DNA of 64,000 nt from Sipunculus nudus (Eukaryota; Annelida; Sipuncula; Golfingiida; Sipunculidae). The DNA lies in NCBI GenBank assembly GCA_026874595.1, contig CM049320.1:25086214-25150213 (forward strand). The letters are read 5' to 3'. The notes beneath the pieces were generated by a model. That model had not been told where the DNA came from, searched no databases, and was given only the letters and a program-made list of their open reading frames with translations. Made by a program: the position numbers and the translations under genes. Shown in pieces: positions 12,608 to 63,500 of the stretch. Within the stretch, counting starts at the first letter, position 1. Every line of letters begins with the position of its first letter.

Positions 12608-12616
12608 TTTGATAAC
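12403..12616 (-). CDS. R-type lectin exon 1 (first coding exon)
   Basis: Acceptor TTTTCAG just before 12616, nine bases of 5' UTR, then the ATG at 12607-12605. Codes residues 1-68 plus one base. Donor GGTAACC at 12402-12401 in phase 1. Carries FFIRSELNG and NQLW. Confidence 0.85.
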
Positions 12617-37125: not shown

Positions 37126-37805
37126 CTACTCGCATATCAGGGAGTATTTGCCGTTTTTTATCACTATATAACACAGTTTTGGAGGCTCCACCTTCCTGAG
37201 ATTTCTGTCCTCCTTGGTAGTAGTGTAGTACTCTCTGTTGTGTGGACCATAGGTAACCCGAGGTGTCTGTTCAGTAGTCTTAGTGACCAGGGTCGATGGT
37301 TCAGCAGTTTGTTCAGTTGTCTTGGTGGCCAGATTTGATACCTCAGCAGTATGTTCATTCGACTTGGTGGCCAGGACTGAAGGCTCAGCAGTCTGTTCAG
37401 TATTCTGGGTGGCCATGGCTGATGCCTCAGCAGGTTGTTCAGTAGACTGGGTGGCAAGGGCTGATGCCTCAGCAGTTTGTTCAGTAGACTGAGTTGCCTT
37501 GGCTGATGGCTCAGCAGGTTGTCCAATAGACTGAGTGGCCAGGGTTGACGCCTCAGCATTTGGATCAGTAGTCTGTTTGTCCATGGTTGATGGCTCAGTA
37601 GTTTGTTCAGTGGTTTTGTTAGCCAGGGTTGATGTCTGAGAAGTTTCTTCAGTCAGTTGGATGGCCAGGGTTGATGCCCCAGCAGTTTGTCCAGTAGTTT
37701 GGGTGACCTGCTTTGTTGCTTCAATTTTCGCTGCAGTATTTGTGGCCTCGGTTTTATCCTCTGAGTTTTTTCCTGGACTGTTGATGGTCTGGGTGGTTAC
37801 TGTCA
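37126..37805 (-). CDS. CTLD gene exon 8, mucin-like repeat tail and stop
   Basis: Acceptor TTATTCAG before 37805, 680 nt, TAG at 37128-37126. About 12 units of 14 residues (42 bp) with the theme ATQSTEQTAEPSTL, rich in likely O-glycosylation sites. The last 45 residues or so leave the repeat and end KLCYIVIKNGKYSLICE, a Cys-x13-Cys segment resembling part of the CTLD second-half exons. Confidence 0.85.
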
Positions 37806-38552
37806 CTGAATAACATTAAAAATATAAAAAAATGTAAACCTGGGTTAATATGAACATTATTAAAGTGAAACCTCTATATTGTGTGAAGCCTTTGAACTAA
37901 GCTAAAGGTCCACTTTAAACAGGTGCCCACTATTTGGAGGTTATGAACGCATCATATATAAAAAGTAGGAGAAATGAACAGGGCCGTCATAATTGCTCAC
38001 ATTATAGAGGTGCTATCTCTTTGGAGGTGCCCAATAGGAGAGGATCTACTGTATTTCGTATAGTACTATTACCTCCGCCACGAAGGTCACGTTTTGCCGG
38101 CGTTTAATTGTGTCTCTGAATGTCTATTAGCAAATTTATTAAAAAAATATTAACGGATTTTGATGAATATACTAGGATAGCCCAGCAATGACACAAGAAA
38201 CATTTGATTGAATTTTGGGGATGATCCGGATCACCATCTTGGCCCAGTAATGTTTTTGAAGAAACAATGCTGCATTTTTACAATGCCATATGGCAGAGAT
38301 ATGCGCTCTTTGAGTTCTTTTTTAGTCATACATGGATTTAATAGAATGTTGGAACACGCGTTAAAAAAAGGACAATTACAAAAAATAAATAAATAGATTC
38401 TGGTCAGGAGTGGGAAATATAAGAAGTCGCATGTTATCCCTAACGCAATGGTTCTCTCTTTCAGAAGGGATTCAGTTACTTGGGTGTTATTTATTAATAC
38501 TGTGCTACAGGTTTCCGAGTATCAAAAACGTTATACCCACACTTTTCCGTAT

Positions 38553-38605
<53 letters not shown>

Positions 38606-41600
38606 GCATATATGAGATTACCGAAAGCAGAATCGCTTAAATATCGATGATATTTTTTTTATTTTCACGTAGCTGTATCCTTTATGAGGAAAAATATCTG
38701 TCTAGAAAAGATATTATTTGTTAAGTGAATCATTATAAAAACAACTCAGCAGATATAAAAAGAACAAAAATTACCTGATGTTGGCTGCATTTCTTTTTTG
38801 CACACAAACAACATCTTCTCATTGCATTTGATCAAGAACCATTTATTCTCCTTGACCAAAAAGACTTTGCATTCACTCTCATCTACAATGTAATCGATTA
38901 AAAGGGAATTATAAATGTGTTCGGCATAATTAATTTTTTATTTGTACGTGGAATACCAAAGTTACCACACAAGACCGTTTATTTTTATTATATGAATATA
39001 AACGTTTTTACGGTGTGCGTTATCTGGATACTGTTACCCTTCGTGTGTTTGTGTGTTTCTGTGTGTGTTTTCATTTTTTCACAACATAACTCACGCAATC
39101 ATTTAAGAAATCTCCTGAAGTTTTCAGGGCACTTCATGAATGGGTCAATGAAGAATTGATTGATTTTTGGTGTGGATCCGGTACATAATCCGGATCAAGG
39201 AACGTTATCTAGGACTGTTTACTTATGCAAGAATGAACCTTGGAATATGGGCAAATAAGTGAATGGCATCCATTAGAATGCAGGATTCTAGTATCTTAAA
39301 TTGTATATTCTTTTACTAACTTCTGACCATTACAGATTTGTTAAATCCAATACTCTTCGGAAGGGACACTTTTAAACAGATCGCTCTCATACAGTACGAA
39401 CGACAACGATTTCCCTGTAGGCATTGTGACATCTAATAAACTTAAAGGTTGTGTTTTACAAAGATATAGGAAATTGCGCAAATTCTATTTTTTTTGCGTT
39501 CATGATGTTATGACAATAATCTACAGAACCTGTTTTTATTAAACAAACAGAAGCCTTGAATCCGTAGTTGCTGAAAGCGGCATATTCCGATATCTGGCGT
39601 CTATTAACTAAAGACAATCACTTGATGAATAACTAGCGTTTAGATGGCAATCCAGAAAACTGAAGAATAGGAAGAAAGCCTATGTAGATGCGGTGCTAAC
39701 TGTTCTTTTTTTTGTTGGTTATATGGACCAATTCTCTTTTCATGAAACAAGAGATGATGTATCGTTAAACAGAACACTCGAGTAAAACGTTTTCCTACAA
39801 TATAAAACACCAATCATGTAGACAATCTTCACACTATTAAACATCTGGTAGCTACTCTTTCAGAGACTTTGGCTCAGTGACTTTGATTCATCGACCCACT
39901 CTGGCGTCTATTTCAAGAACAGTGAACTGGTATGCATGTGTTCACTCGCCGTCTGAATACGAATACATGCATCACATAATTAACTGATAGGGTATAGTGA
40001 TTTTATGCGTTTGGTCAGATTCTCGATGCCCTCTTGCAAAAGTTTGGCCTGCAATTGGTACACAGACGTGCTCCAGGAGGTATTGATTTAACTGCCTTGT
40101 ACATTATTCATAAAATAGACGCCGGAGCCACTCGTTTGATAAAGGTCTCTCAAAGCGTGGCTGCCAGAGGCTTGATAAAATGAAGATGCTGTGCCAAAGG
40201 CTTACCAAGTTGGTCGACAGTTAGTCCAGTCCACGACCTCCGCCTGTCAGACAATACCGTGCTCTCAATCCATTCTTTATCAGCATCTGCAGAGACGTTC
40301 AGCAGGTGACTTTTGTAATTCATGCAATAGTTCTGTGCAACAGACCAATTGGCATGTCCTCCCAGATGATAACAGCTACCTTTGTTTTCTTTCCAGCCGT
40401 TTGGACAAGAATCTGGCGATGACAAAAAATTAACATGCACTGCCGGGTATGGGGTGAACTTGATTGTAATTTATTCTAATCAGCATCCGGTGTAAGTCAA
40501 AGATGAATGTGTAGGAAAAACCTGATCGGGCATTTTTCAAACAGTTAATAGGAACAGGGATTCCGTGTGTTATGACTACAAAACCTGTTTTATGTAAAAA
40601 AAAGACCATATCAAACACACACACACACGCACACCTCTATACCCGCACGACACCTGCTCAGAACGACGCAATAATCGTTTATTTGCCTTCAAGTGGTGGT
40701 TTCCGTTTTGTAATTCGCTCTGCATTTTATTTTAAAAAATCAGTAGCAAACGGATATTGACGGAGGGGGCAATAGCGGCCGGCAGTGGAGCGAAGCCGTT
40801 CATTAACAACACTTTACGCTGCGTTTGTGGGGGGGGGGGGATTCACAAGAGTACCGTCCTATGTGTTGCCTGTTTCGTTAAACAACGCACAGGGCGGAAC
40901 TTCCCTATGTGGGGAAAGTAAGGCCCCCTCGCCATTCTTAGGTGGCTGTAGCTCATATACTGCCCTATCTGTTAGTTTTATGCTAACATTCTTGTCCTTA
41001 CTTCTGACATGTTCGTTATTTAAGGGTTTGTATTGCATGGAATTAATCACAAATGGGAAGAATAACAGCAAATCAAATGAAAACATTTCAATTCTATGAA
41101 GAGAAGTCACAGTATTTCTATAACGAAACTGTCTTTTTATCAAATCCCATTTATAGTTCTGACGTTTTAGTGTCAGTAAAGGAAAAATTCATGTGCATCT
41201 AAAGTTGCCTATTAGATCCATATAAGAAGAACAAATAGCCAGATAGGCCGAACTTGTAAAAGAAAACAAACAATATATATCATTAAGATATAATTTCTAT
41301 AAATTCCTTAAAGGTATTTGATAATTATTGTACCCATTCGTAGATGGCGTTATCCCACCGTATTAATAATAAGCCAAAAGCATTGCTTAGAATGGGGATT
41401 TTATTTTTCACGAAAAAAGTATGATGAATTTAAATATGAAAGAAGTGGCAGCACTGGGATAGATTGCGGAAGAATAAACGTGCTGGTACTTTACCTGTTT
41501 CAGAAGCCTTTTTCTGACACAGGAACCAAAACGTAAGATTGCATTTCCTGAGGACCTGTGAATCATTCCCGAAATGCAGGACAGCGCACTTCTGTGTTCT

Positions 41601-43135
41601 TGGATGGTTTTCTTAAATAGCAGTATCATTGAATTAAAAGCGCACACTTGCTTGAATATTACATAATTATATTTTATGCAGAAAAAAACATAAAGGACAA
41701 GCAGTACGATGGATGTTGCTGCATGTTTGTGCATTCATGGGTGTTCTTCGACAGGATACGGCATATATTGTTGTAGAAACCGACTGTGAATTCGTGATAG
41801 CTTAATATAAGAATACTTAAAGTGAAAACCTTGGTCGGTGTCTTAGTGAATGATATTTTTCAATTTCTGTCTCTAGAAAGTGCAGACAATTGATTCACAT
41901 GTAACATAGAGACCAAATACCAATTAAAATCGTTTAATACATATTGCATTTTCGTCGACATGTAAATAAACAAATCCAGTGTTTACGGCTTACCAAAGAC
42001 AGAGCCTTCTATCCATATGTGTCTCTTTAAACGCAGCAATTCGGTCTTAATCCACTTGTTCTCTTCCGTTGAATTACCCATAATAAGCGTACCATTGAAA
42101 TTTTTGCAATGCGTCTGTGCTTCAATCCAAGTGGCCCATCCGACCACATGATAACAAGTACCGGTATTAGTACGAATTTTCCAGCCAACAGGACATCTTT
42201 CTGTCAATTGAAAAAAAATGTAAGGTTCACTACCTGAATTACTTCAAGCTGAAATGTTTAAGCTCGAACATTTCAAGGGTTAACATTTCGCCAACAATAC
42301 GTTGCATGACGAAAGTGATCCGGCTTTGATAAGGTAATCTATAATGATTTAAAATAATGACAATATCAAAATGAGAAACGCAGTCTTTTTTTTGTAGATC
42401 ATAATTAGACTAGTCGGATTTCGACAGTTAATGCCCGGTGCAAACGTAGTGTCAGAATTAATACACAGTGGCAGGTCAATTGATTTTGTTACAAAGACAT
42501 ATTGCTCAGGAGAAAATATTGGGCCGATCCATTATTCGAACCCATATCAGTATAACCCCAACCGCTTCGCTAGAAAAGCAAGCTTTCATGTCACCCCGTA
42601 ACACACCCCCTCTTAAGAGAGTCCTGTTATCAGAACAAGATTAACTTTACAAGGAGTGAATTAGGTGGCGGTAATTGACTATTTACTTCAAACCACCATT
42701 CACTAGGTATGCCGTCTTTTTGACGAGCCCCCTTTTGTTACGAAAACAAATCGCTAAGGGGACAATATTGGGCGCACATGACCGGCGTTCCAAACGCTTC
42801 ACTAGAAAAGCAAGCTTTTATGTCACCCCGTAACACACCCCCCCTTAAGAGAGACTACTGTTATCAGAACAAGATTCACTTTCCCAGGAGTCACACTTCT
42901 TGTTAATAAGGTGGCGGTAATTGACTAATTACTTCAAACCACCATTCACTAGGTATGCCGTCTTTTTGACGAGCCCCCATTTTTTTTTACGAAGACAAAT
43001 CGCTAAGGGTACAATATTGGGCCGATCCATGTCGGCGTCGCACATGTCCGGCGTTCCAAACGCTTCTCTAGAAAAGCAAGCTTCACTAGCGAGACAGTTC
43101 GATCCGCTTTTATGTCACCCCATAACAATTCGCAT

Positions 43136-43167
<32 letters not shown>

Positions 43168-46100
43168 CCCATTCGATTGTCTGATTAGAAAAATATATTT
43201 GAAATTGTTACTGAATAGCAAGGATTTGTGTGGGAGGGCATATTCAACAAGTCACAATTGCAAATAAAAGAGCAACTAGAAATCATATGCAAACAGATAT
43301 CCTTGATGTTGTCCCATCTACGAGTGCGATAATGATATGTTGTTTTAGTGTCATAGTTATTATGTTTCCAAAGTTTCAAAATCCATAGAAATGTTTCCAT
43401 TGGCATTCCCATTGGCATCCAAAGATGGACATCGAGATGCCTTTAAAGAGGACATATATCGCGCAGATCGGTCAAACTTGCTAAAAAACATACCAAATAA
43501 AAAAATATATATTTTCTGTCAATTCCTTACTCTTTTATAGAGTTATCAAACAGTTAGCATGCAGACAATTAAGCAAGATGGTACTCTACCGTTTGCATTT
43601 CCGTTGTAAGTATTACGTTTTTTACACACGGACACCTTCGTTGCATTACAATGGTCGAGAAATCGTGTCCCTTTCTTGAAGAGCATGGCAATGCATTTTC
43701 CTTCAACTGCAGGTGGTTGTTTAATATTATATAATTGAATTAAACATGTATATGTTCTTTAAACATTACATCTTTACATTTTAAGCAAGAAACAAAAAGG
43801 GTACATCTCAGAAACATTACAAGTTTGTATAAGAGACACCCTGTTGCAATAAGGTCACAGGGAAAATGTATGTTATTTATGCTAAAGTCTGTGTCAGTAG
43901 CATACATGGTACATTCTTTTAAAACTCAAGAAGACAGAAAAACCTAAATAGCTTGGTAATATTTAATTTAAAGTGGAAACATTGGTTAAAATCTTAGAAA
44001 CTTGAATTTATTTTCTTGTTGTCATCACGTGTAGATATCGATGGTATCTGTCGCATCCGATTGAAATATCATTCAGATTCATTCAGTTGGAAGTGTACGG
44101 GAATCACCATAAATATTACCAAATCCAGTGTGATACAGCTTACCTGAAGCAGAGCCATCGATCCATGCTTTGGTTATGTTTTTTGGCAAACTGGCCTTAA
44201 CCAAATGCCTCTCCGTGGTTGAGGAAACATTGAGCAACTGGCTGTCCTGTCGACTGCATTCCTTCTCTGCTTCAGATCTATTGACCGGTTGTCCAAGGTA
44301 ATAACAGTACCATTCAAGATATCTCCAGCCCTCAGGACATACATCTGGCAATGTAAAACAGTGTTAAGTCCACAGCCTGCCTGTTATAGTGGCCATATCC
44401 GATACGTGAAGCGCAGTATTTTCTTTGCAGTAATCCGCATCAGTTTTGTGTACTGTAGTCCACTTCACAGGCAAGCGGTAAATCTCTACGAGATTTACTT
44501 TATTCTTGATTACAGTTAATCGGTTACCAAAAGGGCTGTATCAATATAGCAGTATATCGATACAAATCGATACAACACATTGATAGGTTTATCAATACGC
44601 TTTATTCATTGAATAGATGAGAAACTATGACTTCTTAAAATGTAGCTACAAGCATAACCTAAGTCATAACTAGTTATAAAGTTAAGGTTACTTCCTTTAT
44701 GTTATCATGCTGCATACTCTGAACCACATGTTCGGCAACAGCTGGAACAATTGATCAAAAGCCTAGGGGAAATCAAATGTTAGTTTACAAAAGGAAATGT
44801 GATTTAGGGGATTCATATTTTATAAACATAAGAAAACTGTAATTACAACTGTGTAATTAGATGACCTATATCAGAATTATAAATTTAAAGACTATAACAA
44901 GGACTATAAAATAAGATTGAAATTTTAAAACCGCTTAGTCTATTTATTTTATGAGATTAAGGAATAAAGAAATTTGATTATCATTAACATAACTAGTGGC
45001 CCATGGGCCATGACGCTTAGCTGAATTCAAGGAATCCTTAAAAATGTCTGGTTTACGAGAAAACTCTCCAATACGGATTGACATGCCAAATTTCAGACCA
45101 ATACCTTGAACCACTCGTAAGACATGAGCAATTTTCACCCAAAGCACATGTATTGATGGGCGCCACAGGAAAACAATTGCAGATAGCGCCACCGGTCTTG
45201 GGAACAAGATGGAGGAGTCTAAGATATATGGACACGCACAATTTCAGGCCAATACAGCAAATCACTCCTGAGAAAAAAGCATTAATTTATTATACAAAAA
45301 ATGAAGGTAAGTGGTGCCACCTGTCTGGCTTACGAGAAAACTCTCCAAGACGAAAGGACACGCCAAATATCAGACCAATACCTTGAACCACCATTGAGAT
45401 ATGTGCAATTTTCACCCAAACCACATGTATTGATAAATGCCACAGGAAAACTATTGCAAATGGCACGACCAGTCTTAAGTACAAGGTGGAGGAGTTCAAG
45501 ATCTATGGGTATGCACCATTCCCGACCAATACGGCAAATCACTCCTGAGAAAAGGCATTTATTTAATCTACAAAACTGGGAAAGTAGGTGGCACCACCAG
45601 TCTGGTTTACGAGAAAACTTTTCAAGATGGATAGACTTGCAAAATTGCAGACCAATATCTTGAACCATTCCTGAAATATGAGCAATTTTCACAAAAAAAA
45701 ACAAATATACAGATGGACTGCCACGCGAAAACGACTGTAGACAGTGCCACCAGTCTCATGTAGGTGTTGAGGATCTATGAACATGCAGAATTTCAACTCA
45801 ATACAGTGAAGAAACCCTAAGACGAACAGATGGAAAATGCACAGATGGACACTAGTGGTGGGCCGATCATCGAGTTTATCGAAAGTCAGTCGGTTTGATG
45901 TCACTTTCAAGCGCTCGATTTCCAAAGGCAACTATCGATTACATCATAATAATGATTGTTTTCTTTCCAAAATGCCTTTTAGTTATAGACAAAAATGATT
46001 CTTCAATTTTTTTACCACATTCCGCGCTTCATATAATCAGTCTGTGTTCCCAAATAACTACCGTATGTAACTGAGTATGACAAAGAAGATGCGAGAATGG

Positions 46101-49100
46101 AGGACTTATTAAACTTATTATCTGTGAACTCGCAGGGAGCTGCAGAATTGGCGGAGAGTTTTCTAACGAGATGTACATTGCAAAATATGGGCGGGAAGGC
46201 GTGAAATTAATCTATTCAACCGATGCCATGTGCCACTGTTTAGGCCGTCCCTAAAAAAAAATTCTTTGTTGGGGCTATGATCCTTAAAATTAGTCTGATT
46301 GTGTCAAAATACGTGGAAGATCGTGCGCGAGAGGAGAATACCTGCCGGGGAAACGTAGGAACAGTTTCACAGATAATTACATATTTATTTGATATATGCA
46401 TATATTTGTCTGAATCGATTAATAATCGATCATCAGTCGGTTTGCTCAAACCGATGATCGATTATGAAAAAGGAACCGACTCCCACCACTAAAGGACACT
46501 ACGCAAAAAGGATTGTAGGTGGTGCCACCAGTCAATTATGAGTTGGAGAGATCCATGATCTATGGACATGTAAACTTTCAGCCCAATACATGGAGCCACT
46601 CCTGAGATATCGGCTGTTATCTAAAATACACCCACATTCGTATCACACAGAAAGGTTTGCTGGTGGTGCCACCTGTCTTTGTTAGGCAAAACAACACAGT
46701 TGAAAGAAAAACTATGCTGGATTTCAGGAAGATTGGTCCAAGGGTCTCTGAGGAGTTCTCTGGAAACCAACGAAGAGTTTTTGTAAAAAAAAATTGTAAA
46801 AATTAGAAAAATAAAGGCCACCACCAGTTTGCAGAACTGATGAAACACTCCATGACCAATATTCATGCAAAGAATCATGGTGTTCATCGCAGAAGTTATT
46901 CATATACTCTAGCTTTGTATCAATTTTTTATTTATTCTGAGGGGTACTTACGAGCTCCATAGCTCAGAGGATATGGGTACACCTAATTTCAGATTTCCAT
47001 AGAGACCTTCATGGACCTCCTTTGATGTTAAGTTAGAAGATTCCAGGTCCAGTGGTTAGGATTTGTGCCATATTAACAGATGACAGCTTCTTTGAAGGTA
47101 TCAAGAATAGAGAAAAAAATCGTAAAATTAAAAAGAAAGACAGGTGGCGCCACCAGGTGGTGCAAAGAATCATGGTGATCAAGGCAGTAGTTATTCAGAT
47201 ACTTGAGCTTTTGTATCAAATTTTTAATTATTCTGAGGGGTACTTACAAGCCCCATAGCTCCGTGGATAGAGTAACAGAAACCCAATTTCATGTTTTCAC
47301 AGAGACTTTTCATGGACCTCCCTGGTTGTCAAGTGAGAAAATTCCAGGTCCAGCAGTTACGATATGTGCCCTGTAAACAGATGACAGCTTCTTTGAAGTT
47401 ATCAGAAATAGAGTAAAATTTAAAAAAATAGAAAAAATACACGTGGCGCCACCAGTTTGCAGGAACTGATGGAACACTCAATGATCAATAATCATGCAAA
47501 AAATCAGGGTGATCAAGGCAGCAGTTATTCAGGTACTGAAGTTTTGTATCAATTTTTTTTTATTCTTGGGGGTATTTTCAGACCCATAGCTCGGGGAATA
47601 TGGGTAACTGAGAACTAATTTCAGGTTTCCAAGGAGATTTTTTAGGACCTCCCTGGATGTCAAGTTAGAAGATTCCAGGTCCAGAAGTTACGATTTGTGC
47701 CCTGTTAACGGACGGACGGCTGGACGGCCAAACGGCCAGACGGCCGGACAAACGGAAGACGGACGAAGAGTGATCGCTATAGCTCAGATGACTTTCAGTC
47801 AGTTGAGTTAAATATTTCGTATCACATGCCTTATTAACAGAGCACTTTTCACGCCACTTTCATGCGGCTCACTTTTCTGAGAGTAAAATATAAGTCAGCC
47901 CAAAATGGTGGCTTTTTATTTGTTTACGAAAACCTAACCCATAGGTAAATATCAGTGCGTACAGGCGAATCCGTTTATTTTTGCATGCATAAGGTAAGTT
48001 GTATTCAAAGGTGCCCATTCACCTTCCCTGTTGAAAAAGAATTCATGTGAAAACTGGCTTCCTCTTTGCATAAATTAATGATTTTAGCTTGTTTTGGTTA
48101 TGCAACGTTCTTATTACGTCGTTGTGAAGGATGAATGAACGTGTTTGTTAACACAGCTTTTTTGACAAAAGGGAAAACATGTAACCTTAGGTGGTAAGTT
48201 CATATTTTCGGAGGTAGATCAGTCACTATTTTCAAAGCTCTGGCTTATCTGACTTGCCGCCAGATGCCCTTGTTGAATTTATTTGATTATTTTGGCGGCT
48301 CACTCCCCATATATCATAAACACATTTCCCGGCCTTTCTTTGTGTAAGCTCTGAGGGATTACCTTTATAAAGCTCAGATAGGTGATTAGGCTACCTCAAG
48401 GATAATTCAGTACGACTGAGTGAGGATAAAGGTAGAGCATGATATGTTAATATTAAGATATCAGGATTTATATGCACGGGGTAAGGTATTATCCAGCGGT
48501 CATAAAATGTTATCAGGATATCAGATTTCTTCAGTTCTAGCGAGATTTCACCATTATGCTATTGAGGAACCGGCAGGGTTCGAACCAAGGACCTTAAGCA
48601 CCGAGGTCTAACGCCTTTACCACCAGGTTACGTCCTACCCCTGCATGAGGTAAGTTTAGCTACCATATGACCTAAACTTTCAAGCGAATTATAACGTCTT
48701 GCGACACGGTAAACTGGACAGCAATCAGTGCGATAGCAAATTTAGGGTTTTTAATACACCGATTTAGGGTTTTGTAAAGCTAACTACACCAGGACACAAA
48801 TCTTACTACTTCGAGAATAAAATAAACCGGATTAGTGTAAACTGATGTAGAAGCTAGCCCAGTCGGACACGGCCTATACTTTGTTCAATAAAGCTGTGTC
48901 CACCTGTTTTTTTTTCAAAAAAACTTAATGTTTAATTTTTGCAACAAAAAAAGATATTGCCTTTTATTGGAATCAAGAATTTTACAATAAATCTCTAGTC
49001 TATGTATCACAACGTTTTTATTCTTTACAATGATTTGACAGACTAAATGTATCCTTGATAGGGGAGCCATCTTTGATTTAGCTGGTTATATTTTTTAGAG

Positions 49101-49794
49101 TGTTTACATTATCCAATCAGCAGCTGTTAGCTGAGGTTGGTTTTGCATGTGTGATGACCTTCATCGGCATAAGAATTTTTTTTTTACATTTTTTTTTCTT
49201 TTATAAGTAACCTATCATGAAAGTGTTTTTACATTCCATTTTGATTCGAGAACATCACTGTTTGTTCAAATACATGTAGAATATTTGAGGGTATTTCTCT
49301 TTAAATTGAAATAAAAGTGGTTTAATGGTCAAAGATCACCTTGCTTTTTAAGGGTATACATTATTTTCTAGAATCAATTGTAGGGAAAACTGGGAGGTTC
49401 CTTGTATTAATAATTCATACGTAAGATTTTTTTTTTCTAAAAGCGAATGCGTATAATTAATATATGGAAGTGCCCAATTGACTCATTTTGCTCTTGCTGT
49501 TTGCACAGTTAACATTACCTATTTTTTTATTTCGCTCCTGTATGGCTTAAATTACCTTCACATTCAATACTTGGTACTAAGTGAAACTCAGCCAAACATT
49601 AAAATCCTAAAAATCCACAAAAGGCGGTCCCATTATGGCAAGTCATCTCGAGGGTAGCTAATAAAACATGATAAATCGTCTAACATGATTCTTACTCTAT
49701 TTGCAGTTGATTTTGATTCTGTGAACTTACCAGCATTGGAGTATGACAGCCAGAAGGCCATCATGGTAGTAGTGAAGAGTTTCCAAGAGAACAT
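37126..49794 (-). CDS. secreted protein with three C-type-lectin-like domains and a mucin-like Thr/Ser tail, eight exons
   Basis: Exons 49794-49731, 44344-44144, 43706-43590, 42200-41994, 41611-41495, 40412-40206, 38882-38775 and 37805-37126 join to an open frame of 566 residues (1701 nt with the stop). Every intron is GT/AG and phase 1. Residues 1-21 are a signal peptide ending SNA. CTLDs lie at 22-127, 128-235 and 236-340, each coded by two exons and each with the six Cys of a long-form CTLD, a WIDG/WIEG/WTGL motif and a final VCKK or LCQKK. The long loop between that motif and the third-last Cys is nearly absent, so no EPN or WND calcium site is seen. Residues 341-566 are Thr/Ser/Glu/Ala-rich repeats of 14 residues ending in a short Cys-containing tail. 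Several N-glycosylation sequons. No membrane segment, so probably a secreted, heavily glycosylated recognition or matrix protein; function unknown. Linking the signal exon across a 5.4-kb intron is inference. Confidence 0.8.
37863..38051. mobile_element. small Tigger-like MITE in CTLD intron 7
   Basis: Left AAGTGAAACCTCTATATTG and right GGAGAGGATCTACTG flanked by TA. A decayed version sits at the matching place of the tandem pseudogene (up to 52141, ATTCTACTGTA), and a related end lies at 59503. Confidence 0.55.
38558..38605. repeat. (GA)n microsatellite
   Basis: In CTLD intron 7. The pseudogene copy has a (TA)n(GA)n at the matching position, 52440-52512. Confidence 0.95.
38775..38882 (-). 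CDS. CTLD gene exon 7, CTLD-3 second half
   Basis: 108 nt, acceptor CATTGTAG, donor GGTAATT. Codes ESECKVFLVKENKWFLIKC and LFVCKKEM. Relics at about 52752-52842 and 58838-58930. Confidence 0.85.
40206..40412 (-). CDS. CTLD gene exon 6, CTLD-3 first half
   Basis: 207 nt, acceptor ATCGCCAG, donor GGTAAGCC. Codes SCPNGWKENKGSCYHLGG, QNYCMNY and SWTGLTVDQL. Homologous relics lie at 54487-54543 and 56930-57142. Confidence 0.87.
41495..41611 (-). CDS. CTLD gene exon 5, CTLD-2 second half
   Basis: 117 nt, the same length as exon 3. The acceptor TTTAAG is weak; the donor is GGTAAAG. Codes KCAVLHFGND, LRKCNLTFWFLCQKK. Confidence 0.78.
41994..42200 (-). CDS. CTLD gene exon 4, CTLD-2 first half
   Basis: 207 nt, acceptor ATTGACAG, donor GGTAAGC. 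Codes RCPVGWK, TCYHVVGWATW, QTHCKNF and HIWIEGSVF. Confidence 0.85.
42480..43135. repeat. tandem repeat, about 230-270-bp unit, in CTLD intron 3
   Basis: AGAAAAGCAAGCTTT or a close variant recurs near 42572, 42804 and 43071. Units also share AATATTGGGC and TGTCACCCCRTAAC blocks. Followed by (CA)n at 43137-43158. Confidence 0.8.
43590..43706 (-). CDS. CTLD gene exon 3, CTLD-1 second half
   Basis: 117 nt, acceptor ACCTGCAG, donor GGTAGAG. Codes EGKCIAML, LDHCNATKVSVCKK, giving the last three Cys of the domain. Confidence 0.82.
44144..44344 (-). CDS. CTLD gene exon 2, CTLD-1 first half
   Basis: Acceptor TTGCCAG, donor GGTAAGC, 201 nt. Codes VCPEGW, WYCYYL and an ECSRQ Cys, then AWIDGSAS. Three sequons (NRS, NVS, NIT). 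Confidence 0.85.
44940..45830. repeat. satellite array, about 278-bp unit, three units
   Basis: The marker TCTGGYTTACGAGAAAAC starts near 45046, 45324 and 45601. Units contain GGYGCCACC and TTTCAGACCAATACCTTGA blocks. Confidence 0.85.
45853..46491. mobile_element. hAT-like MITE with 8-bp target duplication
   Basis: Starts TAGTGGTGGGCCGATCATCG and ends ACTCCCACCACTA (inverted). Flanking 8-mers ATGGACAC (45845-45852) and AAGGACAC (46492-46499) match at 7 of 8. Rich in ATCGAT words; no transposase. Confidence 0.8.
46500..47760. repeat. satellite array, about 300-330-bp unit
   Basis: ATGGACCTCC or a close variant recurs near 47011, 47312 and 47643, with GTGGCGCCACCAG and TTATTCNGAKAC blocks between. 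Related to the 44940-45830 array by the GCCACC block. Ends in a (GGACGGCC)-like stretch at 47713-47750. Confidence 0.8.
48566..48636 (-). repeat. tRNA-like sequence, probably a SINE head
   Basis: On the minus strand CCTGGTGGTAAAGGCG (A-box-like) is followed, with a long variable region, by TTGGTTCGAACCCTGC (B box). It resembles class II (Ser/Leu-like) tRNA. The acceptor ends do not pair well, so a functional tRNA is unlikely. Confidence 0.4.
49731..49794 (-). CDS. CTLD gene exon 1, signal peptide
   Basis: ATG at 49794-49792 codes 21 residues: basic start, hydrophobic TTTMMAFWL core, SNA cleavage site. It is followed by donor GGTAAGTTC in phase 1. The join to exon 2 makes an Asp codon just after the predicted cleavage. 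No other signal exon with this phase was seen between 44.4 and 49.7 kb. Confidence 0.7.
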
Positions 49795-51359: not shown

Positions 51360-52439
51360 AAATATATACACCATGCAAGCTTTATAAAATATTTAATTCA
51401 TTATATTTGAATATAAATATAATCTACATTGCGGTGCTAACATCTGTTCTGCCAAATTTTACACCTTTATTTTCATATCTCTCGGCTAATAACATGCAGG
51501 TAACACGAATCGGATCGCCATTAGGTTCAGCAGTATGGCTGGCCAGGGTTGATGCCTCAGCAGTTTGTTCAGTAGTCTGGCTGGCCAGGGTTGATGCCTC
51601 AGCAGTTTGTTCAGTATCCTGGATGGCCATGGTTGATGCCTCAGCAGTTTGTTCAGTAGTCTTGGTGGCAAGGATTGATGCCTCAACAGTTTGTTTAGTT
51701 GTCTGGGTGGCCAGGATTGATCCCTCAGCAGTTTGTTAAGTATCCTGGATGGCCATGGTTGATGCCTCAGCAGTTTGTTTAGTAGTCAGGGAGGCCATGG
51801 TTGATGCCTCAGCAGTTTGTTCAGTAGTCTTGGTGGCCAGGATTAATGCCTAAACAGTTTGTTCAGTATCCTGGGTGGACAGGGTTGATGCCTCAGCAGT
51901 TTGTTCAGTTATCTGGGTGGCCAGGGTTGATGCCTTAGCATTTTGTTAAGTAGTCTTAGTTTTCAGGGTTCCTTCAGCATGTGGGACAGCATGTGGACAC
52001 CCTTTCGACTGAGATGCCGACTGTATGGAGGTCATAAATGGAATATACAAAAAAGGAGGAGAAATATAGGACTGTCAAAAATCGCTCACATTAGAGAGGT
52101 GCCAACACTATACGGAGATGCTCTTCTTGATAGATTCTACTGTAGTATTTTTTTATATATGGTTGGAACCCGGATTGAAAAGGCACAGTGACAAAAAATT
52201 GTAAATTAAAGTCATCAAGTGTAAAATACTAGACGTCCCATGTTATCCCCGATGCGAATTGTTTTCTCTTTCAAAACGGAATTTAATTCCTTTGGTGTTA
52301 TTTATTAATTCTGCACTACAGGTTTCCTTATATATAAAAAATTTGTCCACAATTTTCTGTCTTGATTAGAATTAGCGTTTGTAAAAGTTTTATTTCTAAT
52401 GAAGCATCCGATAATAATAATCATAATACTCATAAAACA

Positions 52440-52442
52440 TAT

Positions 52443-52512
<70 letters not shown>
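52440..52512. repeat. (TA)n(GA)n microsatellite
   Basis: At the same relative place as the (GA)n of the intact gene (38558-38605). A further (TA)n(TG)n lies at 52902-52957. Confidence 0.95.
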
Positions 52513-52513
<1 letters not shown>

Positions 52514-52901
52514 TAATGGCATATATGACTATTTTTAAAGGCAGAATCGCATACATAATGAAAATATTTGTTTTATTTGTTTTCAGAACGTAGTTCTGTA
52601 GATTATCAGGAATGGAATCTTTTTGGAAGAAAAATAAGTTAATAATGTTCGTTGATGTACAAATATTTTCGTAAATTTGATTTGTGTGATTTTGTATCAA
52701 TAAATTCAGCATCAATTGAAAAAAAAACCCCTGAAGTGGTTTGTATCATTTTTTTTTTTTGCACACGAACTGCATGATCTCCGTGCAGTGGTTCACGTAC
52801 AATCTACCATTCTTTGCCCTAAAGGCGTTGCATTCACACTCATCTATAAAGTAATCGTATAGCAGTGAATTTTACATGTTTTCGGCATAATCAATCTTTC
52901 T

Positions 52902-52958
<57 letters not shown>

Positions 52959-53629
52959 ATAAGTGTAAATAGAAAAAAAACGATCTTCCACTGTCAATGA
53001 ATGATAGAATATAAACTTTTTTTACAGTGTTTGTTTTCTGGATATTCCCAATCATGTATTTGTGTGTTTGTTTGTAAGTTTGTTTACAATATAACTCCTA
53101 CACTCACATAAGGAATCTCATGAAATTTTAAGGGCATTTTGGGAATGAGTAAATAAAAAATCGATAAGATTTTGGTGTGGATCCGGCACAATAACCTTTT
53201 CCAGAAACATCTTTTTTTAATTTCCACAAATTTACAATCACTTATGCATGAATAACCTTGGAGTATGGGAAGAATAAATGATTGGCAGAGGCTTGTTTCT
53301 TAGACTGAATATTATTTAACTAAGTCTTGACGACTAGAGATGTAATAAATCCTATACTCGTCTGATTAAAACACGTCAATTTCCCAAATTAAAAACACAA
53401 CTGATATTTTAGTTCTCTCTAGGTATTCGAAGATCTTATAAACTAAAAGGGTTGGGTTTCAAAAGAAGAGGAAATTGGTGAGCGATGAAATTATTTAGGC
53501 TTTCATCGTACTGTGACAGCAAAATGCAAGGTATGTTTTTATTAAACACAAAGAAGCCTGATATATGTTATTCCTTAAAGCGGCATATTCCGAAATTTAA
53601 CATCTTTAAACTAAAGATAATCCCTTGAC

Positions 53630-54020
53630 CATTTCATAAACATAGACCAGACCCCGAGGTAACCCGATTCTTTTGTTTATATACTCGCGCTTATAAGATA
53701 TTTGTGCCGCCGAACAAAACCAAACACATTCAACGAGGACATCTAGCGCTTAGTCAGATGAACCCAGAGTTTGGCAAAAGGCTTTTATATGTGCAGCTTG
53801 TGTACTTCCGCACATATAATACCAACCCCCTTCAGTTACAAGTTTAATTATTGTTTGTAAACATGGGCGTATGTACCGTATCAGCTTGTACAAAAAAAGG
53901 GCTAAACTTCCAACACAGAGGCATTATAAGAATCGTTCTAGGTAAGAATAACCTCAGCTCGTTATTAGCTACACAGAGTAAGCCAAAAATCACACAGAAA
54001 TGACGGGAAAAAGGGACTTG
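53630..54020. other. segment present in both pseudogene copies but absent from the intact gene
   Basis: Relative to 39604-39650 about 390 bases are extra here. Parts of it (ACAGAGGCATTATA, TTATTAGCTACA, AAAAATCACACAGAAAT) match, inverted, 57640-57790 in the third copy. Confidence 0.6.
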
Positions 54021-56857
54021 AATAGCTAGCTTTAAGAAGGCCATCCAGCACACTGAAGTATGAGAAGAAAGCCTAAGTAGATGCAATGCTATTTTTTTCC
54101 CTTTTTTTAATCATATGGACTAATTACCTTTTCATGAAACAAAAGATGATTTAGCAGTTTTCTATGGACCATTTCATTCTTACAAGCCTCAAGCAGATAC
54201 CCTACAGAGACTTTGGGTCAGAGACTTTGTTTCATCGCGCCTATTTCAGGAATAATGAACTAGCCTGCATGTGTTCACTCGCCGTCTGAACAAGTATTCA
54301 TGCTTAATAAATAGGGGCTGATTTAAGTGATTGTATGTGTTTGGTCAGCTTCTTAACCGTACAATAGCAAACATTTGGCATTAAATAGTACACAGGAGTT
54401 ATTTGATTGATTCAACTGCCTTGATAATTTTTCATGAAATAGACACTAGAGTGACTCGTTTAATCAAGGTCTCAGATGACATATAGGCATGTCCTTTCAT
54501 ATGATAACAGCTGCCGTTGTTATCTTACCAGCCAGTTACAAAAGTAATAGCCTGTACTGCTGTATTGAGATGAACTTGGGTATGTTATTTATTGTAGTCA
54601 TGACAAAATGTAAACCGAGCAAAACGTCCTTAAGTAATAATTATAAACATTCTTTCTTTAAAAAAAAATGATTATACCAGAAGGAGAAGCGAAATGTTTC
54701 TGTAGGACCACACAAGGCAGCTCTGATAAATAGCCATGCGCTAAACACACGTGCAAACCTGCGTGATACCTGCTGAGACATTAGCGTTTTGAAATACGCC
54801 CTGCGTTATTTTATTTTTATATTTTCCGGAAAACTGACATGGGGTGGGGGATGGGTGCCGGCGGCTGGCTCTGGTGCACGATAGCGGCCGGTGAATAATA
54901 GCCCTTTACAGTTTGTTTTTGTTTGATGGTTGGGAGGCCAGTGTCCGTCCTATATGGCACCTGTTTTCGTTTAACGAGCACATTGCGAGAACCTTTGTCT
55001 TGGGGCTATTAACGGCCCTCTCTGAATGTTGTGTAGGTTAAATACTGCACTTTTTACCGAGTTTTAGGCCAACATTCTTTTACTCATATCTGACATGTTT
55101 GTTAAATTTAGGGATTGTATTGAACGCAATCAATCGCTGACGATTAAAGAATAACAGAAAATCAGTGATCGCTGTATTACTTTAAACCAAACTGATCCTG
55201 TTATCTTAAATCCGATTTATAGTTATCACCTTCGAGTGTCAGCAAAGGATATTTCCATATGCATCTTATATCTGTTTGAGATGCACCTACAGAACAACAT
55301 CACAAAAATAAACAAAACATACCATATATATATCATTAAACTAAAGTGTTTTTCATTTCCTCAAAGGTAATTTATATTTTCTGAACTCAATCATACATGG
55401 AGCCATCCCACAGTACTGAGAATAAGCCAAAGGCATTGTGGACACCGTAGATTAATGCGAAACTGTATAAAAACTTGCATGATGAAGTATGAATAGAGTT
55501 TAAAAGAAAAATATTTAAAAAAAACTATAAAAGTATAAATTAATGTTAAAACCCACAACTCTCAAATAAATCTAACTATATAGGACACTTCTACACAAGG
55601 TTCAGATATGTTTGCGGTTTTACTGTAAGTTACTAGAGTCAACTGTATTTTATCTTTCCACTCAGTATATCATATATTGTCGAATTGACGAGATAAAATG
55701 TTAAAAATGTGAAAATTGTTGAAGCAATCACATCTCTGTTTTAATTATACATATAAAAAACCTTAATCACCCTCTCAAAGATGCTAATTTGCACCTAAAA
55801 AGTATGGGCAAGTATGTACACATCGTATTTTCAAAAAAGTATGAACATTCATCGAGAAAGAACCTTATAAAAATACAAATGTTGAGTACTTTACATGATT
55901 CATCAGCCTTTTTTGGCACAAGAACCAATTCTCAGAGAAGCTTTTATTTGAGAACGCCACTGTAATATTCCAGATATTTAGGGTTCTGTATCTTCCCTGA
56001 TGGTGGCCTTAATAATGAACCTGAATTAATCAAATAAAAAATTATTATACGAACAGCACTGCATTGGTAGCTGCTTTAATATTGTATCATTTTTTAAAAT
56101 AAAAACGCATAGAATCTTGAAAAATTACATCATTGTATTTTTTGCAGGATATCAAAAACATGTCAATGACAGGAAGTGCGCTTGATGTTGTTTAATGTTT
56201 GAGCATTCATAGGTAACCGTCAAATACACACGTCATTAATTGCTGATGAAGACCGACACTGAATCCTTGCTAGCTTAATATAGGCATTATAGTGAAAACC
56301 TTGGTCAATGTCTTATTAAATGTTATTATTTTATTTCTGCTTTAGATCATGCAGAAAATTCACATGAATTCACAAGATACGTTCAATATAGATTGCATTT
56401 TCTTTGTCGCCATATGAACAAACAAATCCAGTGTAATACGGCTTACTAGGGCCAGGATCTTCTATCCATAGAATGCCTTTTATGTGTAGCAATCCGGTCC
56501 AAACCGACTCGTTCTCTTCCACTGAATAACCCAAAATCGGTTAACTATGGAGATCGCTGCAAAGCGTCTGTAATTCTGACTCAGTAGCCCATCCCACGCC
56601 GATTTTCCCAGCCACCCAGGCATTTATTTGTCGATTGGAAAACTTTAAGATGTACTTCCCAAGTAACACCAAGCTTAAATGTTTAAGATTAAAGTTTTTG
56701 GCATTCAACGATAAGTTGTCATTGCCTTATCTTTGATCGTTTAATATTATGATAATGTCAGAATGAGAAACAAGTCTTTTCTTGGTAGATCATACCCGAA
56801 TTTGGTCGGAATTTGACAGTAAATGACCAGTGCAAATGTACTGAAAGAACTTACACA

Positions 56858-56869
56858 CAGTTATATATA

Positions 56870-56929: not shown

Positions 56930-58733
56930 CGGTCGTTTATTTCGAGAAAATACAATTCACATTGTGGAAGTTTGTATCATCTGGAACACACAAATTGGTT
57001 TGCTGCCGAGAGCTTTTGAAATATCACAGTAGTCACTTGGTTAATGTTTCTACAGACGCGGGAAAATACTGGCTTAGGAACAATGAATTTTCGCACAGAT
57101 GAAGCTCATTGACTTGTAGCACTGCCGGCTGACTTGGTAAGCCTTTTGTATAACATACTATCATACTATCAAACTGACCTCTTGCATTTACGGTTTCAGA
57201 TATTTGGTTCGACGAGCCACTGTATCGTAATTTTCATCATTTATGAACAAGGTAAAAGAATCAATCAAATAATTGCTGGAGCACGCCTGGGACATTTGTA
57301 GGCCAACATTGTGCGGGAGAGGCATCGATAATATGAAAAAACGCATAAACCTTTGTGAAGCTGTTCCGTATCCGGAGCCTGTGTTCTTGTTCAGACGGCG
57401 AGTGAACACATGCAAGGTTGTTCATTATTCATGAAATACACGCGAGAGAAGCTCAATGAATCAAATTTTCTGACTCTAAGCCTCTGGAGGCGTAGCAGAA
57501 AGAGATTAAATAGTTTGAAGATAGTTTTTAGGAAACTGCTAAATAATATTCTGTTTCATGAATAAAGGATGGGTCCACACGATAAAAAGGAGAAAAATTT
57601 AATAGCATCTAGCCAACGTATTTTAGTTTTTAGGGTCTTCTTAAGGTAGCTATTAAAATCATTTATCTGTAAAATTTATGTGATTTCTGGTTTTTCTCCC
57701 GACCGTTATAAAGCTAAATCCTGCTAATTATGTAGCTAATTCCTGCTAAGAAAGGTTCTATAATGCATCTCTGTCGGATGTATGACTTTATTTGTCAACG
57801 AGATGATACGTTAAATACGCGTATGTTGACAAAAAGAAAATAAAATGTAACTAAGTGGTTGTTAGCATATTTGTTTAACAGCTACACAAGTTTGCTAAAA
57901 CTCTCTCGTCTGACTGAATGCCATATGTCCTTATTGATTGTGTTAGGGGTAATTTGGTGGCCCTTCAGATTTATGAACGACATGGAACAAACAAAACTCA
58001 TAATCTTTGTACTGCGGCATCTGCGTTTTTTGCTGTATATTTTTTTATAAAAAGATAAAGGGAATAGCTTTAATTAGTAGACGTCAGATATCGGAACATG
58101 TCGCTTTAAACATCTACAGATTCCAGGATTCCGAATGTTTAACAAGAACATGTTCTATAAGTTGCTGACACTGCACAATGAAGGCCAAAATAATATCTAG
58201 AATATTAACCACAACTTCCTATTCCTTTGCAAAACAAAACCTTTTTGTTAAATTTATATTACTATAGCTACAGACAACTAAGGAATCGTGTTGTGTTTTT
58301 ATCATTTTGATTTGTTACCCTTTTAAAACTCTTCTTTTAAGAGGAAATATTGAATTGAACAAGGGAATAAATTCTAATGAATGCAAGACCCCCCCCCCAA
58401 TCTATTCGGCATATTCAAAAGTTCATTCATGGATTAGTTATTTGTGAATATTTGTGAATTAACTTGATGACGTCCCTGGGTTTTTATGCCGTATCTACAC
58501 CAAAGTCTAATTGATACTTTATTGAATTTGCTAAAAAAATCATGAGATTCATTTAAAGGTCGCGTGAGTTGTGAACAAACACATACAAACACATGAAATG
58601 GAATGCACGTATATCTTACTGGTGATGGTAACAATATCCAGATAATTCACAATGTAAAAAGTTTATATTTTATCATAAACTCACCCTGAGAGGTCAGAGT
58701 TAACGATCTTGTTTGGTAACTTTGATGTTGCAC

Positions 58734-58786
<53 letters not shown>

Positions 58787-58990
58787 AGAAAAAGAAAATT
58801 ATGCCAAACACAAGTATAAGACATACATTGTCAATCAGAGTTAATGCAAAGCCATTTTGGCAAAGTCGAAGAGATGGTTCTTGACCTGATGCAATGAGAC
58901 GATACGGTTCGTGTGTAGAAAAAGGATCCAAGCGACCTCGGGTATTTTTTTAAATTACGGCTGATTTGTTTTATAGAATGAGACAGTTTC
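56930..58990 (+). pseudogene. decayed inverted fragment of the CTLD gene (CTLD-3 exons)
   Basis: On the plus strand 56950-57142 is an exon 6 relic (SLYHLEHTNWFAAES, then after a frame slip SSHLVNVSTDAGKYW) ending at a CTTGGTAAGCC donor as in the intact gene. About 58838-58930 is an exon 7 relic (CKAILAKSKRWFL, stop, CNETIRFVCRK) with one in-frame TGA. The intron between them aligns, inverted, to 38883-40205, for example CTTTAAACATCTAC/AGCGACATGTTCCGATATCTG and TTCACAACTCACGCG. A (TA)n at 58734-58783 lies in it. Non-functional. Confidence 0.83.
58734..58783. repeat. (TA)n microsatellite
   Basis: About 25 TA units inside the inverted CTLD pseudogene fragment. Confidence 0.95.
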
Positions 58991-60589
58991 GGAAATCATA
59001 TTCACGAAAATGTGTCCACATCTACCAGCAATAAAACTTCCTTATTATACTAACATGAAGATATATTTCCTTATAATTCACAGAACTAGGTTAAAATAAA
59101 TAAAATATCTTCATTTTCTATGGAAATCCCGGTCGTTAATGTTCATATATGCCATTATCTCTCTGTACGTATATATATATATATTCGTATTGTGATTATC
59201 ATTATTACTATTATCGTCATAATCATTGGACGTTTCACTAGAATTTATACAAGACAATTTTAATCAAAGCAAAATGTTTTGAGTAATATTAAGATATTAG
59301 GAAGTCTCCTACATAGAATTAATAAATATTACCCAGGCAATTAAGTCTCTTTAAAGAGTTAATTTTATACGTTATTTATCAGGCCACACATAATATTTCA
59401 CACTTGATGATAAAAATTTACATTTTCTTGCATTGTTTTTATTTCAATGCGTGTTCCAACATTATAAGAATACCATACAATATGGAATAATACCATAATA
59501 AATACTGTAGAATCTCTCCTAATGGACATCTCCATCGAGTGGAAACCTCTATTTATGTGAGTTATTTTGACTGTCCTGTTTATTTCACATAACTATTATT
59601 TATGACGTGTTAACTACTTCCATATAAGGAGGACATCTATAAATGGGACATTTTTTTTCTTTTTTTTATAAACACTGTTTTGATTTTTTTTTTTAATTTT
59701 TAATTTTTTATGAACAAGCAAACCACACAGACCATCTGCAGTCATAGACAGGTCCAGGCCAGGAAAAAACTGCTAATTTTCCAGTCAAGGTTTTCTCAGT
59801 AGATTCTGATAGTTAAAATCAGCTCTGGGACCATCTTGAATTTTGCCTTAAATTCAATATGGACGCCAAAATTCCAATGTGGCCGCCAAAATAACTACAA
59901 TGTTATCTTGAAGAAACCTATAAGGTGAAATGCAGATTTTTTCCCACTAATTTGTGATGATAATAGCCAATGAACATGACCCAATTAGTTGGTTGCCACA
60001 GCAGAACGCCACGCTTTTTGGGAAATAGCAATATCTCTTGTCCTGGCAGAGTTCTGACTATAAATTTGGTATCTAGCTCTAGTTTTTCAGGGATGGGGAA
60101 CCCAAACACGCCATCAGATCCGATATTAGGTCAGTAGGTCATGAGGAAAATTCAAGATGACCGCCAATGGCAATGTCAGTAATCTACTCTTTGGTGTTTC
60201 CCATATTCTACAGGAGTTACAAAAGTAATTTTAGGGCCGAGACATAGATTTTCAGGGTCAAGGAATACGTTCCGTTACTTTCAGCCACACTATCTGCAAC
60301 TGGTACCATGAATCAAAGATGTCTGCCTTATCCAGCCTCGCTTAGATGAGTGGTAAAGGATGTAGAGTCAGAGCCATAATACTCTGCACTCAGACAGCAG
60401 ATAAATGTTTAGTAAAAGAATCTCTTTACAGAAACCAATCTCAGGTCTATTTTCAGATTATATGAATCCACTCCACAGTGAAGACAATGAGGAGCTCCTG
60501 ACCTAGATTCAGTGAATCTGTAGTTCAATGTTGACAAAGACATTGGAGTGTGTTTTATCTTTGTGACTACCAGATTATTCCAATATGGC
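58991..60589. other. intergenic with dispersed repeat fragments
   Basis: A Tigger-like end (CTGTAGAATCTCTCCTAATG) lies at 59505. T-runs at 59650-59700. An AATATGGACGCCAAAATTCC / GTGGCCGCCAAAAT block near 59860-59900 is typical of dispersed repeats. No gene seen. Confidence 0.45.
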
Positions 60590-63500
60590 ACTGACACCAT
60601 TTATTCGTCCCAAAGTAACCGACAAGGAGAGATGCAGTCTTTGCAATGAATCCATCAAGGACAATGAGGACACTGCAGAGATGAGACCCAGTTGATTGTA
60701 GTCTCTTCTGGCCTAAGCTGATAGATGGACTGGTATTGACGAAATGCTGCAGCAAAGCTACTAGAAGTTCATCTCAGTGGATAATCCTACGACGTGTTTG
60801 CGCTTGATCTTTACTACCGTAAGACGTGCTACTATAACTTTACCTACATTTACGGATGCAGCCAACTACAGAGGCGGAAGAACAGGAGAGATTGAAGGCT
60901 GTAGTCATGGACATATTTTTCCACCTGTTTCAGTGCAATATTATCAAAGACCAAGAGGCTTTTCTTCTGACAAAACTGTTAGAAGATATTAAAGAGCTTC
61001 GCAGTGAAAATGACCTATAGGACCTACCTATCACCAAAACAGCCACTCTAAAGTTGAGGCTGTCAGAGAATTTCGGATATTCCACTGAATTTCATGAGAT
61101 TGGAAAAAAGGCTTTTGGTACACTCCAGCAGTGTAAACCCCATATCATATTCTGCAGCTACAATTGAAGGTCATGGTCTCCGGGAAAGTGATCTGTCAAA
61201 AGCATTTGCAAAGCTTATCCGTCGCAAGGTATCACAGAGAGAAGCAGTCAAGTGGCCTTTGGAAGCTCACGAACTGTTCAGCCTGCTTGATAGCAACAAA
61301 CCCCTTTAGTGCATTTATAATGCTATGTTTTGATCAATCAATCTTTGGAGACCCACAAATGCACTGGTTTATGTGACAGTTCCAAGGAAAGCAGAGGCAG
61401 AAAAAATCTCAGCAGTCAGCAAATGTTGGGAAAAGCTCATTACTGGTCAACGATAACCATTACGAACTGCTTTGAGTCTCACAATACACCGCATCACGGG
61501 TAGTAAGGAGGCACCAACTCTTTTAAACCGATGTGGAGTTGGTATCCCATATACTGATGTCTGTGACCTAAATAACGAGTGGGCTAAGTCGTCACCATGC
61601 AGCATAAGCAGATGCTGCCGCCTGGTTTTATCAAGGGTCGGAGCGTACACGTAACATTTGACAATTCAGATAGAAAACAAAAGACGCTAACGGGAGCACA
61701 CACTAAGCACACGACTCGTACAATATTTCAGACTAGTTAGTCACTGTTGCCAGTGCTACTCCAAAACAATCAGAGGTGTCGCACATCATAGACAATAAGA
61801 AAGCCTGACTATGAATCATTCAAAATCCCCAAACGAAGGACACCACCTAAATCATTTCCTGAGATAAACGTTGAGTACAAGGACTCATCAGTCTTTTTAG
61901 AAGCATTCGAACAAAACATTGGGTTTTGCTTGCTGCAGTCAGAGACAATTGCCTAGAAGAATATAGTCCTCAGGTAGACAGGGATGAACTAGGACCAGTT
62001 GGATCATGGACTTCATATATGAAAAATGTGACAAACTGCTCGTCCACCAAATGCAAGCTTGAGTTTCTTCCAGTTGTTCCGTTGCCACCAGCGGAAAATG
62101 TAATCAAATGGTACATTTGCACGAGTTCAAGTGGCAGATGATCTTAAACTAGATAATATCTTCGCACACGCAGAAGATGCAATCAACAGCAAGATGTTGA
62201 TTATATCCTGGCTCAATCAAGAAAGGTATGATAAGATCATACCCCTCATGGATGGTTTTCACACAATTCTGGTAAGTCCTTAGGATCCTGCATAAGAAGT
62301 ACGCCTGTCCCGGTGTCGGTGATTGGTGGGTTGACAGTGATGCTATTGCCGATGGCTCTGTGGCCAAAGCAATAGAAGGTCTCCATTATGCAAGGACTTT
62401 AGGCCTGCACAAGCAGTCCTTTGAGGCACTACTTAGGCACCGAATCAAGTCAGATATCGTCAGCAACAAATTGGACCAGGATACGAGACAAGCAAATGCT
62501 AAGCGGAGGTACAACCTTTGTGCTGAAAGTCTCCAATCTCTGCTGAGCCTGCTTGATTAAGATATTTGCTCGTAACTACAGACAACTAAAGGCACACAAG
62601 CGAAAATGATGGTAGAGTACACCAAGAATGTATCTTCGTTGCTCTATCTCAATATGGCAGTCCGGGAGAAAAGTATTGAGACTCAAATGGCAGCTAAACG
62701 TGCTCTACTGTCCAAGTACTTTGCTTTCGGACAAATAGATTATGCAAGATACCTCACATTCCAGCATGTCAACCTGCAAAATGTGAAGATCAATCGCAAG
62801 GACGCCTGGGAGGAATGGATTTGGAGGGTCATTATCCGGGAAACCATTTTTACCATTCATGGAGATCTGATCACGGAGACAACAATCAACCGTGAGGGAA
62901 AGGTAAGAGGAGGTCCGATACAGGGTGGATACAGCACCAGTGAGCAGACAACAGATACTTTTATCAAGACTAGCCATATGATGGCAAAGGTCAGAGCTAC
63001 ACTGAAGGAAAGGTTAAACATACTGACGTCTTCAAGTCATAAAGAGATAAACATCTGCGCACGAAGACAGCATGACAACATGGTTTCTACACTAATTGCA
63101 AAGCTGGATAGATACTTAAACCCTTTCCTCAGTGCTCCAGCTCGTCATATGAAGGCAGGTGTCGAAATTAGCCATGATATTGTGGAAGGGCTGTTATCAT
63201 CAACAGAAGCTGGAGAAAAACAGTACAATGACTTTGTTGACGGCTAACTTAAAGCAGGAGATGACAGGACAAACTTCTTTGAGAAGATTGTAAATCTCAA
63301 AAAGCAGGAGCCAAAAGCTGTGAATGTTCTCAAGGAAGATAGGCAAGCTTTTGGAAGGCAAGGCTACCCCACCTGCAGGGGCACATTCTTACCCTCTTAC
63401 AGTTGTCCCGCTTGCTCTAGCCACTCCAGATAGAGATCTCCGTCAAGGATCAAAAGCAGAACCTAGGAACTACCTCATTGCAGAGTCAGCATCAGTTTGC

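Follow-up and report, generated by a model that had tools for sequence, protein, structure and literature searches.

Members of the mannose-receptor family, such as DEC-205, PLA2R and the chicken yolk sac IgY receptor, comprise ten or so domains, including lectin-type domains (CTLDs) in tandem, each with a full-length loop, as well as a fibronectin II domain and a membrane anchor. The canonical beta2-beta3 loop of a CTLD is about 30 residues long and CTLDs without it are termed compact; those named as compact are Link domains and some bacterial proteins (PMC6468738). The motifs EPN/QPD and WND are tied to Ca2+ site 2 and to the binding of sugars or PAMPs (PMC6468738, PMC4432315). Secreted lectins with multiple CRDs are known from bivalves (PMC12842671, PMC4432315), in which CTL families are reported to be expanded and expressed mainly in the digestive gland and gills (PMC10140915). 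The scallop protein CfLec-3 is secreted and has three tandem CTLDs; its PAMP-binding CRDs have YPT, EPD and EPN at Ca2+ site 2 (PMC4432315, PMC12842671). Among group V CTLDs, glycan binding is possible without Ca2+ motifs, as in the case of dectin-1 (PMC7618208).

Here we describe a minus-strand gene in a 64,000-nt window (the whole stretch of DNA that was analysed) of Sipunculus nudus contig CM049320.1. On balance we lean towards reading it as an intact gene whose product would be secreted, with three compact CTLDs carried by a stalk of Thr/Ser-rich repeats, and would work through protein contacts in mucus or matrix. Such a protein would resemble CfLec-3 in being secreted, in having three tandem CTLDs and in coming from an invertebrate, but the motif-bearing loop of CfLec-3 is missing here and the repeat tail found here goes unmentioned in the available part of the CfLec-3 description (PMC4432315, PMC12842671). 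With the mannose-receptor family it has tandem CTLDs in common, whereas the fibronectin II domain and membrane anchor of that family were not found in this protein. No protein of the same architecture was recognised in the PDB or in the available portions of the literature, no relatives of the gene were confirmed in viral contigs, bacterial/archaeal genome contigs or phage records, and Rfam returned no match.

The gene runs from 49794 to 37126. Spliced together, its eight exons of 64, 201, 117, 207, 117, 207, 108 and 680 nt form a single 566-codon frame followed by TAG, with phase 1 at all seven junctions and GT-AG borders on all seven introns. The exon lengths, phase-1 junctions and single frame proposed in the earlier note are reproduced exactly. 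Exon 1 (49731..49794) holds the start codon and a probable signal peptide, 21 codons plus 1 nt. The first halves of CTLD1, CTLD2 and CTLD3 are encoded by exon 2 (44144..44344), exon 4 (41994..42200) and exon 6 (40206..40412), each identified by a Lectin_C match, together with open frame and splice borders for exon 2. The second halves are encoded by exon 3 (43590..43706), exon 5 (41495..41611) and exon 7 (38775..38882), which have their cysteine register in common. Exon 8 (37126..37805), recognised by its tandem repeats and composition, encodes a Thr/Ser-rich tail of 42-nt (14-aa) repeats, a two-cysteine C-terminal segment and the stop. Candidate polyadenylation signals lie 107-362 nt past the stop (ATTAAA at 37019 and 36808, AATAAA at 36863 and 36764).

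Scored with a donor weight table, six of the seven donors are within the top 1.1% of same-strand GTs between 37.0 and 50.1 kb. The donor of exon 3 (gtagag) is weak, with 13% of the GTs on the same strand of that interval equal or better, and the 3′ edge of this exon is less sure. The acceptor tracts of exons 3, 5 and 7 are also weak (53-60% pyrimidine over 15 nt). Intron 1 contains tandem repeats of a 277-nt unit at 45045-45692 and of a 301-nt unit at 46866-47455.

The domain search of the 566-residue product suggested in the earlier note returned Pfam Lectin_C (PF00059) with E=1.1e-11 and 45.9 bits for the whole protein. Each of the three domains scores above the gathering cut-off of 22.6 bits (24.7, 27.7 and 32.6 bits; E 4.1e-5, 5.0e-6 and 1.4e-7), and no other Pfam domain rises above cut-off. 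The view that this arrangement is very unlikely to arise by chance is upheld, more by this content than by intron phase. Six cysteines stand in one register across CTLD1 to CTLD3, with cysteines 4 and 5 always separated by 14 residues. Identity to CTLD3 is 31% for CTLD1 and 32% for CTLD2. The protein has eleven N-glycosylation sequons, 10 of them within the CTLDs. Every domain consists of two symmetric phase-1 exons (201+117, 207+117 and 207+108 nt), so that the protein looks like a triplicated two-exon cassette placed between a leader exon and a tail exon. The exon model, Pfam and the repeat analysis described below all support the earlier description of three CTLDs built as two-exon phase-1 units and followed by a repeat tail. 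The best single-sequence PDB match is LOX-1 (group V) and the best PDB profile matches are the tandem CTLDs of the mannose-receptor family. CTLD3 also has a weak match to UL45 (E=0.006), below the cut-off of that family.

All three domains would be compact. The WIGL-like motifs (WIDG, WIEG, WTGL) are separated from cysteine 4 by only 7, 11 and 9 residues in CTLD1, CTLD2 and CTLD3. A profile of the three domains matches many PDB CTLDs as two separate halves. Three structures each give one clear pair of halves in which the gap exceeds that of the profile by 27 residues (DEC-205 30 versus 3, PLA2R 28 versus 1, IgY receptor 34 versus 7). Other half-pairs among the matches listed have an excess of 26 to 37 residues, and the snaclec chains 2vrp_B and 1sb2_B align end to end and carry 23-25 more residues. 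None of the three CTLDs has EPN/QPD or WND, so that canonical Ca2+-dependent sugar binding is not expected. The earlier note had proposed a recognition or mucus/matrix protein; recognition in the usual C-type-lectin sense is not supported, as all three domains lack the long loop along with the Ca2+ site 2 motifs, and the compactness indicated by the sequence is a feature beyond its description. We regard the gene model with compact CTLDs as well founded and probably correct.

A very short beta2-beta3 loop is also characteristic of Link domains and of the bacterial intimin/invasin CTLDs (PMC6468738). In contrast to Link domains, the CTLDs described here match Lectin_C and keep six cysteines in one register; the Link family was absent from a Pfam scan at E up to 10, which returned Lectin_C and some weak matches to unrelated families. 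Fish AFP-like CTLD genes also have an intron downstream of WIGL, as found here, but they contain extra introns before C1 and between C2 and C3, and the available part of their description makes no mention of a triple-domain or repeat-tail form (PMC514892).

Because the intron is located where the loop belongs, the domains might instead be ordinary CTLDs in which a short phase-1 loop exon, overlooked or alternatively spliced, resides in the intron of each domain. An extra symmetric phase-1 exon would preserve the frame, and the result would be a normal multi-CRD lectin like CfLec-3, of the secreted kind known in bivalves (PMC12842671, PMC4432315). We nevertheless consider this unlikely. Introns 2, 4 and 6 offer 13, 7 and 21 open phase-1 candidates of 45-150 nt, none of which (0/41) contains a Trp; six of the 41 have a donor score of at least 4 and none of these is loop-like. 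A Lectin_C search of the nine frames of these introns found no match, and a single weak unrelated Pfam match was returned, with the limit that a short loop exon could slip past a profile search. Three such exons, one per domain, would have to have been missed. Identity between the gene and a decayed neighbouring copy was tried as a detector of hidden exons and is undiscriminating, with exons at 60-77% and introns at 55-74% over whole-length alignment.

A second alternative concerns what compact domains might bind. Dectin-1 binds glycans without Ca2+ motifs (PMC7618208) and the best single-sequence PDB match is LOX-1, so the protein could be a secreted pattern-recognition molecule with a non-canonical glycan-binding site. 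LOX-1 and other group V CTLDs likewise lack Ca2+ motifs but are membrane receptors that retain the loop (PMC7618208). That loop is gone here and no sequence feature points to a glycan site, which makes glycan recognition of this type improbable. We continue to favour binding by protein contacts, as follows. The predicted disulphide-rich three-CTLD protein would be secreted, and its domains, having no Ca2+ site 2, would bind through a non-canonical surface or by contacts between proteins. If it is O-glycosylated, the tail would keep the CTLDs extended in mucus or extracellular matrix, and the two C-terminal cysteines may link chains. We give this mechanism of protein contacts and an extended stalk in mucus or matrix about an even chance of being right.

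The tail contains tandem repeats at 37268-37705, 10.4 copies of a 42-nt unit that are 76% alike and translate as 14-aa units of the type AEPSTLATKTTEQT. The term mucin-like, used for it in the earlier note, is no more than moderately apt: Ser+Thr make up 34% of the repeat core, and Pro, at 5% over the whole tail, is low for a mucin. Two cysteines are located in the C-terminal segment of exon 8. This segment (LCYIVIKNGKYSLICE) was also considered as a CTLD second half and rejected as not significant, with at least 20% of shuffles reaching its score.

Secretion, likewise proposed earlier, is plausible. No membrane-spanning stretch occurs after residue 25 (the highest 19-residue hydropathy mean is 0.61). 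The leader, which ends in SNA and precedes a strong donor, is plausible but modest when judged by hydropathy alone, being moderately hydrophobic with a best 9-residue mean of 1.43. Exon 1 lies 5.4 kb upstream of exon 2 and is tied to the gene by nothing other than phase and donor quality. The interval from 44.4 to 52.5 kb holds 44 openings from ATG to a phase-1 GT, five of which have a fair donor; exon 1 has the best donor of the five and the sole purine at -3, and one of the others is more hydrophobic. We thus regard the putative signal exon as the least supported part of the gene model.

Two decayed copies of the gene, which the earlier note had not seen, lie in the neighbouring DNA upstream of it. 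Relic A (51499..56861, minus strand) is a decayed copy of exons 4-8 in the order of the gene, recognised from protein-level pieces and collinear DNA blocks. Its tblastn pieces, also on the minus strand, correspond to the CTLD2 first half (56597-56460), the CTLD3 first half (54533-54477), the CTLD3 second half (52844-52752) and the tail (51984-51499); stops occur in three of the four pieces, the CTLD3 second half being open. Exon 5 is represented in relic A by a 44-nt DNA match. Relic B (56966..59653, plus strand) is an inverted decayed copy of the CTLD3 exons and of intron 7 sequence, with protein-level matches to the CTLD3 first half (56966-57114, plus strand, two frames, one stop) and second half (58833-58940, plus strand, two stops) and inverted DNA blocks extending to 59653. 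Exons 6 and 7 therefore have decayed counterparts in both relics. Collinear DNA matches run through exons and introns, at 66-84% for the blocks assigned to relic A and 67-72% for those assigned to relic B.

Relic A keeps the order CTLD2-CTLD3-tail, and this is support, separate from the splice model, for the exon order over that part of the gene. Relic A matches the gene as far as about position 42469, so that neither CTLD1 nor the leader is clearly represented in the relics, and no signal exon copy was found in either of them. One weak relic match of 101 nt near exon 3 (71%, E=6e-5) lies within a stretch already matched to introns 4-5. The placement of CTLD1 and of the signal exon is without relic support. 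The exons could thus be real and the transcript different, with another leader, a membrane anchor or a CTLD1 that belongs to another gene, a reading to which the missing relic copies and the distant exon 1, linked by phase and donor quality only, lend some weight. Against it, the relic A tail follows directly 3′ of CTLD3 as in the gene, CTLD1 has the same cassette layout as the other domains, intron 1 holds no further CTLD exon with E below 0.1, and a membrane anchor would need a sufficiently hydrophobic stretch that is absent after residue 25. We judge a different transcript to be rather improbable and retain the eight-exon model.

The gene has no stop in 566 codons, whereas the aligned parts of relics A and B contain 6 stops in 306 codons and 4 in 88, respectively. 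When neutral drift was simulated at 0.05, 0.10 and 0.18 per site, a mean of 3.7, 7.0 and 11.0 stops accumulated, and 2.4%, 0.1% and 0 of 1000 runs remained stop-free. Set against these simulations, the stop-free sequence indicates that the reading frame of the gene seems to be maintained.

Divergence from the relics was estimated from blocks aligned one at a time, leaving out poorly aligned stretches. Compared with relic A, exons 4-7 have a pS of 0.323 and a pN of 0.328, with introns at 494/1633 = 0.303. The corresponding dN/dS is 1.02 (0.66-1.63) for exons 4-7, 1.45 (0.97-2.50) for the tail and 1.23 (0.92-1.80) for both together; relative to relic B it is 0.51 (0.26-0.94), with 259 differences at 916 intron positions. 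Third codon positions of exons 4-7 differ from relic A less (0.263) than second (0.344) and first positions (0.357). The CTLD exons appear as diverged from relic A as the introns are, so that amino-acid constraint is not demonstrable against this relic. The pattern fits a fast-evolving gene compared with neutral relics and proves neither strong constraint nor adaptive change; with dN/dS about 1 against relic A and 0.51 against relic B, positive selection is not claimed. A recently silenced copy that is intact by chance would agree with two decayed neighbours and a dN/dS of about 1 against relic A, but is very improbable given 0 stops in 566 codons, intact splice borders throughout and the 2.4% of 1000 runs that stayed stop-free at a drift of 0.05 per site.

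The intact gene remains our preferred reading, and the gain and decay of copies around it fits a role in defence or in mucus or matrix. More tentatively, these domains may represent an animal class of compact CTLDs, of Lectin_C type and with all six cysteines, in which the loop was lost at the post-WIGL intron before triplication, leaving two-exon cassettes that do not bind sugar and evolve rapidly within a birth-and-death cluster. If so, the loop would have been lost at an intron position with a known counterpart in fish CTLD genes (PMC514892), and an alteration at an exon boundary would have reduced a sugar-binding fold to a bare scaffold; caution would then be warranted in naming every animal Lectin_C match a lectin. 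If the protein is one among many lineage-specific CTLD proteins, it would be ordinary.

The window contains other coding-like sequence. At 62276-63247 on the plus strand, two adjoining open frames of 94 and 223 aa have no Pfam family above cut-off. On the minus strand, stretches at 7274-7546, 9130-9429 and 12383-12754 resemble exons of an R-type (ricin-B, beta-trefoil) lectin, the second and third above the Pfam cut-off and the first just under it. The closest PDB match of the third is a 29-kDa galactose-binding lectin, 2zqo (E=5.5e-18), which we take to be earthworm EW29.
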